Below are positions 6,647 through 9,869 of a stretch of 21,944 nt of DNA, in pieces (positions within the stretch are counted from its first letter, which is position 1; the number at the start of each line of letters is the position of its first letter). The position numbers and the translations under genes were made by a program. A model generated the notes under the pieces. It was not told the DNA's origin. It searched no databases and saw nothing but the letters and a program-made list of their open reading frames with translations. The stretch is taken from positions 1-21,944 of the IMG/VR virus record IMGVR_UViG_3300038701_001334, one strand, 5' to 3'. Source of the stretch: a virus.

Positions 6647-6928
6647 ATGACTAAAGTTATATTTAAAAAAGAAGGTGATTCTTTTTTAGCCGTATTCCCT
6701 CAAGAGCCAGGCACAATCAATGTATATAAAGATTGCATGTGTTATGCCCATATAGGTCAACATTCATCTTGTGACATTGATTATGTGCTTGGTTTACCTG
6801 CTGCGCCCGATGATGAATTACAACCGCTATGGAACGAATTAAAATCTATTGGTTATGATGATTTAAAACGTGGCTTTCATATCACCCATAAAGATTTTGA
6901 AAAAAGAAAGGTGGCCCTTTATGCGTGA
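6647..6928 (+). CDS. Small conserved mobile-element protein
   Basis: This 93-aa protein opens KVIFKKEGDSFLAVFP and contains CMCYAHIGQHSSCD near residues 30-43. It ends with a helical part (WNELKSIGYDDLKRG). The combination of an N-terminal 'V-I-F-K ... A-V-F-P' strand pair, a 'C-x-x-Y-x-H-x-G-Q-H' block and a 'L-x-x-I-G-Y' helix resembles small uncharacterised proteins I recall from phages and integrative elements; no activity is known to me. AAGGAG (6632-6637) precedes the ATG. Confidence 0.75.
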   Translation: MTKVIFKKEGDSFLAVFPQEPGTINVYKDCMCYAHIGQHSSCDIDYVLGLPAAPDDELQPLWNELKSIGYDDLKRGFHITHKDFEKRKVALYA

Positions 6929-6998: not shown

Positions 6999-7015
6999 AC
7001 AGTTTTCCCCGTGTA

Positions 7016-7050
7016 AACGCCTCTCATTAATTTGAGAGGCGTTTTTTATT
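7016..7050 (+). terminator. Strong intrinsic terminator of left early operon
   Basis: AACGCCTCTCA (7016-7026), loop TTAATT, TGAGAGGCGTT (7033-7043) form a perfect 11-bp stem followed by a T run (7042-7047) and TATTT. It ends the plus-strand operon. It lies just past the stop of the converging minus-strand gene at 7046, where the stem is followed by only a short T run, so it may also act weakly in that direction. Confidence 0.92.
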
Positions 7051-7444
7051 TCATCATGTTTCTAAACCATTTAGGCAAATGTTTATATTTGACCCATAAA
7101 TCATAACCTAGATCAATTTGCTCTTGTGTCACAAACTTATTCTTTTTAGCCAGCCTATAGCCACGGGGAACAGCCTTAAAGGGTTTTTCAGTTAACCTAT
7201 ATAAATATTCCTTCTGTACATACTGCCCCCTTATCAACTCTCTAGGCTTTAATGCTCTCTCTACAAAACCATTCTTAATTAAAACTTTCATCCAGCATGT
7301 AAACGACATAGGCACGTCGTCAATATTCTGGTTTTCATTCCTTGCGATATTCTGTCTAAGCATTTTAGAACTATGCCACAACTTTCGCCCATCCTGAGAC
7401 TTTAGCCCGTCAACAATCTTTTCCTGCCAACTCTTTCTTTTCAT
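7046..7444 (-). CDS. Basic winged-helix-like protein next to primase
   Basis: This is a 132-aa, strongly basic protein. Residues about 48-85 (SFTCWMKVLIKNGFVERALK ... YLYRLTEKPF, split here) look like a winged helix: a recognition-type helix, 'NGFVER' and a beta wing ending in YRLTE. The rest is helical and rich in Lys, Trp and Tyr. No named family recognised. It lies downstream of the primase-helicase on the same strand, and the 223-bp gap before it carries the TGGACA/TGTCCA array, so it could bind that array as an initiator or autoregulator (inference). The start has only GGTGAAAAG upstream, a moderate SD. Confidence 0.68.
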   Translation of the reverse strand: MKRKSWQEKIVDGLKSQDGRKLWHSSKMLRQNIARNENQNIDDVPMSFTCWMKVLIKNGFVERALKPRELIRGQYVQKEYLYRLTEKPFKAVPRGYRLAKKNKFVTQEQIDLGYDLWVKYKHLPKWFRNMMK

Positions 7445-7538
7445 CTTTTCACCATAACAACTTTAAACACTAAATCAAAAATCATTTTAAAAATAAATAA
7501 ACCTCAATTAAGCATCAATTTTACGGGTCAATTTTTAA

Positions 7539-7651
7539 TGGACATTTCGAGGGTTTGGACAACTGGACATACCTAAAGGTATATGTCCATTGTGTCCAAT
7601 GAAGACCCTGCTTGTACATCTATTCTGTCCATGCTTTGTCCACATTGTCCA
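7539..7651. repeat. TGGACA/TGTCCA element array with 45-bp dyad
   Basis: Eight copies of one hexamer lie in 113 non-coding bp: TGGACA at 7539, 7556 and 7564, then its complement TGTCCA at 7584, 7593, 7626, 7637 and 7646. The inner copies build an imperfect palindrome, 7555-7599, centred on TAAA (7574-7577), with arms TTGGACAAcTGGACATACC and GGTATATGTCCAttgTGTCCAA. Three more hexamers occur in the primase 3' end (7700, 7712, 7775). An AT-rich stretch (about 7440-7540) adjoins. The gap 7445-7667 contains no credible gene. It may be a replication origin with iteron-like sites or an operator array. Confidence 0.6.
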
Positions 7652-7667
7652 ATCAACTGCTAACCCC

Positions 7668-9869
7668 TTATTTAAAAACAATTTTTTCCATTACTTCTTT
7701 GTCCACTAACTTGTCCAATGCACGTGTAAATGCCTTCATTTCACTCTGTGTCGGTTTGCTCATAATAGAGGCATTGGACAAATCCCAAACCCCGACACGT
7801 TCCCCTTCTGTACTCTTTAAAACACCATTCTCATTTAAACAATCAAGATACATTCTTGTCATTAATTCCTTCTTTGTAAGGTCATACGTGTCGGGGTTTG
7901 GATCTTGCATTAAATAAACATTGACCGCTTCATATGCTGCTTTTTCTTTCTCATTTAATCCATCTGTTGCCTCTGGTGATAGGTCTTCAAAGTCATTATC
8001 GTTTGGCAATACAACATGACATGTGGTGATTGGGTCATTATCTTCATCCCTGCCCAATTCAATAACTTTGAGGTTAAACGGTAATTCCGTATCGCTTTCA
8101 CCATCACGCTGTTTCTTTGTTCTGATCTTCCGATTGTACTTTTCACCCTGTTTTGTGCTTGTGACTTCCAATTCTGTATCTGTAGCGGCCCTCAATGACG
8201 AATGACCACGTGCACCAGCGGCTTGGTCTTTACCGCTGTGATGAACGACGAGCACAGCTGATTGGGCATGTTCCTGGATAAACTTCATATGCTCGATATA
8301 TTTACCCATATCTTCAGATGAGTTTTCATTACCACCACTAAATGTTGTGGCAAGCGTGTCAATAACGATCAGACCAACTGGTATGCCAGTGCGCTTTTCT
8401 TGCTCTTTGGCGAGGATAACCACATCTTTAATATCGTCTTTGGGCGTTAAGAAATTAACCCCCATCGCGACATATTCATAAGGGAACTTCTTTAACCCGC
8501 ATGTTTCGGTGATGCCCAATCGCTCTCTTAAAGCAGCAATACGACGACTATAAGACATGCCAGCCTCAGCACAGATATAAAGCACACCAAATTGTTTCGG
8601 TATTTTATGTTCACCCCAATTACGCCCTGTTGCGACGTGTCCAGCTATATCTGTAGCGACAAATGATTTACCTGTATTCGATTGACCATACATAACAACA
8701 ATTGTCTTCTGATCGATCAGCTTCTTAACAAGTGGTCGGCTGTCCAGCTTCCACTTCGCATTATATGCAGCGATTGTTTTTAACCGCTTTGTTGTCGCGC
8801 CCTCTTCAGGCGGTTCAATATGATTCGGTTTCTCTAACGGATTGACCTGCTTTTCAATTTGAGCGACATAATCAGGATCAATGTCTGTGAAGTCCTCAGC
8901 AGCGCGACCATAACAACGTGCAATTTCACGTGGTGTCTGCTCTTTGCCCTTCCCATGTTCAAAACAATACATGATTTGGGCTGTCTCATCTAAAGAATAG
9001 CCCAATAACTTTAACTCATCAGCAAGCGCAAAATCCCAATCAGAACGATCATCACTCTTCATGAGCGTACCATTCCAAATCTTGTTTAATTTACCATGTT
9101 GTTGACAATGTGATGTTAATCTTGATTTGAGATCTTGCGGTATTTCTTCTTTTAATTTGGACATATCGTAATCATTTATGTCCTGTTCATTCTGTGCGGC
9201 TTCAACTGGCTTAATGAACTTCACTTCTTTATATCTATAACCGCGTGGTGATTGTGCGTGTAAGACCTTAGCAAGTGATTTTGTGCGGCCCTGGTCCAGC
9301 TTCTTTTGTGTCGGCACGTTGGTCGTATAAGGTATGCGCATAATGCGGTCAATGTTTTGCACCTTATCAGTATCATACTTATGTGCCAGGCCGCGTGATA
9401 ATGCCTCACAGTGTGTGATATTCGCTTCTGTAGCTTCAATAGGTTTGTCGAATAACCAGAACGATTGAATACCACCACCACTGTCAATAATATATGTCGG
9501 TGGATTTTCTGCCTCACTCAACTGATTCGCAAAATGATTTAACCGCACCTTTTCATCAGCAAACGGCACACCTTTTTTAGGATCTGCATCAATCCATAAG
9601 CCGTGTATCTTAGCGACATCGGCTTTCTTTAATTTACCTGTTGGTGATGCGTGGTCCGATGGCTCGTTGACCATAAAATATAAATTACACGTGCCCTCAT
9701 TGGCTGCAATGAACTTCTCAATGTAAGGATCTGATATGGGCTTTGTTATCCCATTGACTTCGCCTGATTCGGGATGGATGGCGACGACATTAATATTACC
9801 TTGTTCTCTAAAGGCTTTTAGGAAAGCAACTGCTTTTTCTGCATTGCTTGTATCTTTCTTTTCTGCCAT
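7668..9869 (-). CDS. Primase-helicase (RepB-like primase + RecA-like helicase)
   Basis: This 733-aa two-domain replication protein primes and unwinds phage DNA. Residues about 1-220 match a RepB/AEP-type primase: GLWIDADPKKG (D94 and D96 as metal ligands), SGGGIQSFWLF (130-140) and DRIMRIPYTTNVP (174-186). Residues about 380-610 are a RecA-like/AAA_25 ATPase: Walker A G395-QSNTG-K401-S402, Walker B VGLIVID504T, HHSGK (543-547) and a possible arginine-finger region RGHSSLRAATD (554-564). The C-terminus (about 620-733) is helical. It is read opposite to the other replication genes. A minus-strand promoter (9953-9982) and a 5' stem-loop lie upstream, and AGGA precedes the ATG. Confidence 0.93.
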   Translation of the reverse strand: MAEKKDTSNAEKAVAFLKAFREQGNINVVAIHPESGEVNGITKPISDPYIEKFIAANEGTCNLYFMVNEPSDHASPTGKLKKADVAKIHGLWIDADPKKGVPFADEKVRLNHFANQLSEAENPPTYIIDSGGGIQSFWLFDKPIEATEANITHCEALSRGLAHKYDTDKVQNIDRIMRIPYTTNVPTQKKLDQGRTKSLAKVLHAQSPRGYRYKEVKFIKPVEAAQNEQDINDYDMSKLKEEIPQDLKSRLTSHCQQHGKLNKIWNGTLMKSDDRSDWDFALADELKLLGYSLDETAQIMYCFEHGKGKEQTPREIARCYGRAAEDFTDIDPDYVAQIEKQVNPLEKPNHIEPPEEGATTKRLKTIAAYNAKWKLDSRPLVKKLIDQKTIVVMYGQSNTGKSFVATDIAGHVATGRNWGEHKIPKQFGVLYICAEAGMSYSRRIAALRERLGITETCGLKKFPYEYVAMGVNFLTPKDDIKDVVILAKEQEKRTGIPVGLIVIDTLATTFSGGNENSSEDMGKYIEHMKFIQEHAQSAVLVVHHSGKDQAAGARGHSSLRAATDTELEVTSTKQGEKYNRKIRTKKQRDGESDTELPFNLKVIELGRDEDNDPITTCHVVLPNDNDFEDLSPEATDGLNEKEKAAYEAVNVYLMQDPNPDTYDLTKKELMTRMYLDCLNENGVLKSTEGERVGVWDLSNASIMSKPTQSEMKAFTRALDKLVDKEVMEKIVFK

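Follow-up and report, generated by a model that had tools for sequence, protein, structure and literature searches.

A cluster of one hexamer, TGGACA and its inverse TGTCCA, occupies positions 7539-7651 of the window (the whole 21,944-bp stretch analysed, an IMG/VR virus record that is a fragment of a genome), between the 3′ end of the gene for a 733-aa primase-helicase and the gene for a 132-aa protein, both of which run leftward. The locus raises the question of what these sites serve and which protein reads them. The initial annotation had proposed an initiator-controlled replication origin, with a transcription operator of the 132-aa protein as its main alternative. The origin is supported here as the best reading, on comparative evidence only: the array is likely a phage replication origin read by the C-terminal HTH domain of the phage's own primase-helicase, an inference drawn from sequence alone. 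The operator reading is weakened, as the 132-aa protein is limited to the window family and the array is far wider.

The array and its neighbours in the window

The features of the locus are listed below.

7046..7444, − strand: 132-aa winged-helix protein, MarR/PadR-like fold (predicted), beside the array only in the window family
7445..7538: flank with 78% A+T, inferred candidate for the unwinding region
7539..7544, + strand: outer iteron TGGACA (sequence match)
7555..7599: 45-bp imperfect palindrome made of 2+2 iterons flanking the hairpin, arms offset by 2 nt
7556..7561, + strand: iteron TGGACA, central 2+2 dyad
7564..7569, + strand: iteron TGGACA, central 2+2 dyad
7569..7582, no strand assigned: central mini-hairpin ATACCTAAAGGTAT, with the CCTWWAGG core at 7572-7579
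7584..7589, − strand: inverted iteron, central dyad
7593..7598, − strand: inverted iteron, central dyad
7626..7631, − strand: iteron, helicase-proximal group of three
7637..7642, − strand: iteron, helicase-proximal group of three
7646..7651, − strand: iteron, helicase-proximal group of three
7668..9869, − strand: primase-helicase, 733 aa, proposed initiator, with an N-terminal primase-like part, an AAA_25/RepA-type ATPase (residues 377-550) and a C-terminal HTH
7700..7705, − strand: iteron within the 3′ end of the helicase gene
7701..7748, − strand: predicted recognition helix (helicase residues 708-723), including Lys712 (codon 7734-7736)
7712..7717, − strand: iteron within the 3′ end of the helicase gene
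7775..7780, + strand: additional TGGACA in the helicase gene, in the opposite orientation

The hexamer array is real and far above chance expectation. When the whole window was shuffled 300 times with dinucleotides preserved and every hexamer, not TGGACA alone, was scored, the best of any hexamer reached 3-5 copies in 113 bp and 4-7 copies in 250 bp, versus 8 and 11 observed copies of TGGACA, respectively. Outside the array the hexamer is near chance (17 sites versus 14 expected for the whole window), therefore the window holds a single array; no second TGGACA cluster was found in the window, and since the record is a fragment, one elsewhere in the genome is not excluded.

The sequence features that the initial annotation had described all held: eight hexamers in 113 bp, three in + and then five in − orientation (positions exact); a 45-bp imperfect palindrome; three extra hexamers in the adjacent coding end (starting at 7700, 7712 and 7775, of which the isolated last may be chance because of its other orientation); and an AT-rich flank, which lies on the array side away from the helicase and ranks in the top 0.6% of 94-bp windows by A+T content. 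GC skew, which it had suggested as a check, follows gene direction in the window and was thus dropped as origin evidence.

The only Pfam match of the 733-aa protein is AAA_25 (1e-28); its N-terminus has primase-like matches in PHROGs, and comparison with Pfam and PHROGs gave no match to Toprim. A profile of the ATPase plus C-terminal half matched RSF1010 RepA (1g8y; E=3e-11), and the predicted model of the helicase matches the same structure by fold (Foldseek E=5e-9). By homology the helicase belongs to the RepA-type hexameric class, with hexamer formation itself inferred. Its C-terminal part is predicted with high confidence as a helical HTH-like domain, whose winged-helix nature rests on the family pattern.

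A tblastn search of phages with the 132-aa protein gave no relative. The 132-aa family is present only in the five window-family loci and absent from all other loci with the same array type, therefore it is not a general reader of the array. Further downstream, a good intrinsic terminator at 7015-7044 separates the 132-aa gene from the convergent gene at 6647-6928.

Arrays behind related helicases

A DNA-level search of public phages with the array region gave no match, and no relative emerged when viral contigs were scanned with single proteins of the window. A pattern scan with the 2+2 dyad returned five viral contigs, of which only L008 is a true relative (helicase 44% and 132-aa homologue 35% identical to the window's); an alignment query added three further relatives. 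The gene order of helicase, array and a 130-140-aa gene is kept in all five members of this window family, four of which carry TGGACA arrays. In the fifth, L023, the architecture is the same and TGGACA is replaced by TGGAACA, a change of the word in concert.

The best public helicase matches, the Roseobacter phages CRP-811 and CRP-823, carry about ten copies of ACTACAAA in the place equivalent to the window array, and in most of 80 viral contigs related to the CRP-811 helicase an array begins at the helicase stop codon. Each lineage has its own word: ACTACAA (in Roseobacter phages), TAGGACA, TTCACAT, TTTCATACA, TTTCTACA, TTTTACAC, CGTACCA, ATACCA, CGTAACA, TTTCCGACA, AAACCCGAC, TTTATACA, CGGACA (in Bradyrhizobium elements and plasmid pMRAD08) and CGGGACA. 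Rhizobium phages 16-3 and RHph_X2_25 have 14 copies of CGTGACA, the array word of 16-3 being GCGTGACA. One end of most words is ACA or CCA (TGT or TGG on the other strand).

An array was called when one hexamer occurred at least six times within 300 bp after the helicase stop. By this unbiased k-mer counting, 31 of 37 non-redundant AAA_25 relatives (representatives below 85% identity) have an array behind the helicase, versus 7 of 716 control windows drawn from the same loci; the position of the array behind the helicase in most relatives is thereby shown. The arrangement recurs in dozens of related phages, prophage-like elements and two plasmids. No clear array was seen behind the AAA_25 helicase of Caulobacter GB2A, Corynebacterium phi673, mycobacteriophage Knocker, Gordonia Widow and others; the loci without one include L004, L108, L110, L112, L114, L115, L216 and several Bradyrhizobium loci. 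Therefore the rule covers a large part of the family and is not universal.

Several further loci were noted in the course of these scans. The circular Methylobacterium plasmids pMRAD08 (L213, NC_010507) and pD (L214, NZ_CP107536) carry an AAA_25 helicase followed by GGACA-type arrays, and pMRAD08 also bears a terminase gene. Two iteron groups are found in the Bradyrhizobium elements L016 (4769-4822) and L107, with a long G+C-rich hairpin, CACACCACCCCCAAAGGGGTGTG, between the two groups of L016. Iteron matches in Bacteroidetes, acidobacterial and other genome contigs (L010-L015, L018-L022) were rejected as dispersed or simple-repeat-like, or as having the helicase unchecked, and were left out of the counts; two Bacteroidetes MAG contigs among them (L014:5521-7199 and L020:6469-7582) hold many dispersed TGTCCAtttTGTCCA...TGGACActTGGACA units that are REP/BIME-like.

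Three TGGACA dyads, with another helicase type or with none visible, count against the origin reading. In L005 (6557-6597) a 2+2 dyad without a CCTWWAGG centre precedes a Toprim/VapE-type (SF3-like) helicase gene by ~230 bp, a pairing of the word with a different helicase class that remains unexplained. Those in L007 (20-121) and L009 (3714-4014) have G+C-rich centres (CCCCCTTAAAAAGGG and CCCCTAGGGG), and no helicase is visible in the adjacent DNA examined.

The reader of the word and the central hairpin

Across relatives, the array word tracks the C-terminal HTH domain of the helicase and not its ATPase core. This link is shown by sequence analysis, without binding data: the word correlates with the C-terminus given the ATPase (partial Mantel r=0.24, p=0.0002), but not with the ATPase given the C-terminus (r=−0.12, p=0.99). 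A caveat is that the ATPase core changes more slowly than the C-terminus, and this difference by itself could favour the C-terminus in such a test. In a tree built from the helicase sequence as far as the ATPase core, loci with TAGGACA (L035, L038 and L041) are interleaved with loci with ACTACAA (L002, L029 and L032), and supported branches force at least four word changes over the whole tree. The pair L032 and L041 has ATPases 91% identical and C-termini 41% identical, with ACTACAA and TTTAGGACA arrays, respectively, while the gene across the array from the helicase is clearly similar in the two; the pair is interpreted as a natural swap of C-terminus plus array.

Among the 402 alignment columns of ATPase plus C-terminus, the one holding Lys712 has the strongest association with GGACA-type words: Lys or Arg is found there in 11 of 12 GGACA-type loci versus 0 of 26 others (Fisher P=1e-8). 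The exception, L006, has TGGACA iterons yet Ser at the aligned position, where the alignment is poor and uncertain; L023, whose word contains GGAACA, has Val. The same held in loci fetched afterwards (Bradyrhizobium genomes, Methylobacterium plasmids and two phages), with Lys or Arg in 14 of 14 with GGACA arrays versus 0 of 10 with other arrays (P=5e-7); one later locus without an array carries Lys at this position. Both P values are uncorrected for kinship; several changes arose independently on the tree. No iteron overlaps the codon for Lys712. Together with the natural swap, this rule places the reading head in the helicase itself, again in the absence of binding data.

Alignment of 22 loci around the array centre revealed a conserved layout of two iterons, ~5 bp, the core and inverted iterons. 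The core is CTTTAG in 12 loci, CTATAG in eight, and CTAAAG and CTTAAG in one each. Outward from the core, stem positions 2-5 show complementarity in 20, 15, 20 and 15 of the 22 loci, respectively (6.9, 6.8, 12.6 and 9.4 expected from shuffles), and show up to four pair types. The stem thus covaries, and it is pairing, not sequence, that is kept over a hairpin of ~14-16 nt. Positions further out, within the iterons, do not keep pairing. As single-stranded DNA the 52-nt dyad of the window folds at −13 kcal/mol (z −5.2). A single long conserved hairpin with the iteron arms paired in register was rejected, as there is no covariation at positions 6-12 from the centre. A resemblance of the central hairpin to the primase-specific ssi hairpins of RSF1010 (PMC4434180) is inferred, as is its recognition by a primase. 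Separately, 11 of 37 arrays (for example L002, L041, L051, L058 and L026) contain another conserved block, TCAATGNNTTA, placed close to the iteron groups or between them, and no function is assigned to it.

The initial annotation had held that lack of conservation of hexamer order in relatives would refute an origin. The outcome was unlike that expectation: the layout is conserved and the word is not. The concerted change of the word is itself shown, and under a conserved architecture it is the strongest evidence for an origin, from sequence alone.

A proposed initiator-origin pair, its rivals and its precedents

In the proposed mechanism, the TGGACA copies would be iterons bound by the C-terminal HTH of the helicase whose gene lies immediately upstream of the array, with the GG of the iteron probably read by Lys712 of the recognition helix. 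Helicases would collect on both converging groups of iterons, form rings there and open the adjoining A+T-rich DNA. The CCTWWAGG mini-hairpin would arise from the exposed central strand and may be where the fused primase begins primers, by analogy with RepB′ at ssiA/ssiB of RSF1010. Every step here, from binding, ring loading and melting to hairpin priming and the start of replication at the array, is inferred only, without binding, melting or replication data.

Four other explanations were considered. The first, that the array is an autoregulatory operator of the 132-aa protein and unrelated to replication, has in its favour that the array lies 95-207 bp upstream of the start codon of this gene, that the product is a predicted MarR/PadR-like winged helix and that all five window-family loci keep the gene next to the array. 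However, the sites do not co-occur with the regulator, such arrays being widespread without the 132-aa family; the words follow the helicase C-terminus and the arrays precede unrelated genes; a simple operator would not be expected to spread 8-15 sites, in both orientations, across >100 bp; and the promoter-like match in the region is no better than chance. This reading is very unlikely.

The second accepts an origin and has the iterons bound, in the window family, by the 132-aa protein as a RepC-like accessory initiator. RSF1010 does pair a separate iteron-binding RepC with RepA and RepB′ (PMC4234260), and the 132-aa gene is adjacent with a predicted winged-helix fold. Yet the Lys712/GG rule and the natural swap point to the helicase, and other lineages lack the 132-aa protein, so this too is judged very improbable, although a helper role within the window family alone remains possible.

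The third, that the array serves partition, packaging or recombination-dependent steps and not origin firing, draws on the fact that clusters of binding sites can have such roles; it is all but ruled out, as the word follows a replicative helicase and not a terminase or ParB, and is also found behind the same helicase type in the Methylobacterium plasmids. The fourth, that the central palindrome serves to terminate transcription and that the hexamers arose by chance or are left over from duplication, finds support in the G+C-rich, terminator-like CCTTTAGG hairpin of the distant loci L109, L111 and L113, and is virtually excluded by hexamers far above chance and conserved as arrays and by the lack of a predicted terminator at the array (the sole match being that at 7015-7044); promoter and terminator readings of the array are thus both unsupported.

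The preferred reading, an origin read by its own primase-helicase, has several precedents. In SaPI Rep and SCCmec Cch2, the C-terminal domain binds iterons that directly follow the helicase's own gene (PMC7581432). Similarly, the window iterons lie directly downstream of the initiator-helicase gene and the helicase C-terminal domain appears to set the origin word, binding being inferred. Those proteins, however, are of DUF927 or Primase_Cterm/D5 type, whereas the window helicase has the AAA_25/RepA-type RecA fold; Cch2 has three iterons and the window more, and a CCTWWAGG centre hairpin is conserved in window-type arrays. P4 alpha combines primase, helicase and a winged-helix domain that binds origin repeats in one protein (PMC4234260), a combination that the window protein would share if it binds as inferred. 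The P4 primase is of Toprim type, unlike the window's AAA_25 helicase with a primase-like N-terminus free of a Toprim match. P4 alpha is an SF3 helicase, unlike that of the window, and P4 has a second cluster of the same repeats, crr; no crr-like second cluster is present in the 22-kb window fragment. By its RepA/RecA-fold helicase the window system is thus not a member of the SaPI Rep/Cch2 or P4 alpha groups, though similar in working.

At RSF1010 oriV, RepC, RepA and RepB′ act with iterons and with ssi stem-loops recognized by the primase (PMC4234260, PMC4434180). The window helicase is homologous to RepA, and iterons and a hairpin are present; the differences are that RSF1010 uses three separate proteins, with RepC on the iterons, whereas primase, helicase and iteron reader appear fused in the window protein, and that the one covarying mini-hairpin lies inside the iteron array. 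The adjacent 132-aa winged helix invites comparison with RepC but is limited to the window family. Finally, pRN1 ORF904 and phage BIP-1 have a primase-helicase with a C-terminal winged helix and a downstream origin with a stem-loop (PMC4234260), comparable to the array and hairpin behind the window helicase's own gene; they differ in their SF3 helicase and in that no iteron structure was found there (PMC4234260).

Origin annotation is absent in the phages inspected, and a 2025 paper on the closest cultured relatives, CRP-811 and CRP-822, makes no mention of iterons or repeats. The literature search yielded precedents for SaPI, SCCmec, P4, pRN1 and RSF1010, and nothing on the AAA_25/RepA-type helicase class. 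A bolder reading, towards which the evidence tips only slightly when all its parts are taken together, is that of a widespread unannotated origin class in phages, prophage-like elements and phage-plasmids, in which (i) each RepA-type (RecA-fold) primase-helicase would have its own iteron array directly behind its gene, in a fixed layout around a CCTWWAGG hairpin; (ii) C-terminal domain and array would be exchanged together as one specificity cassette; (iii) Lys or Arg at 712 would read GG, making the origin word predictable from the protein; and (iv) the fused primase would start at the central hairpin. If true, the origin could be read from the sequence behind the helicase gene, initiator-origin specificity would be directly testable via natural swaps (such as L032/L041) and the single-residue code, and self-recognizing initiator helicases would extend from the SF3/D5 and DUF927 types to the RecA-fold RepA type.
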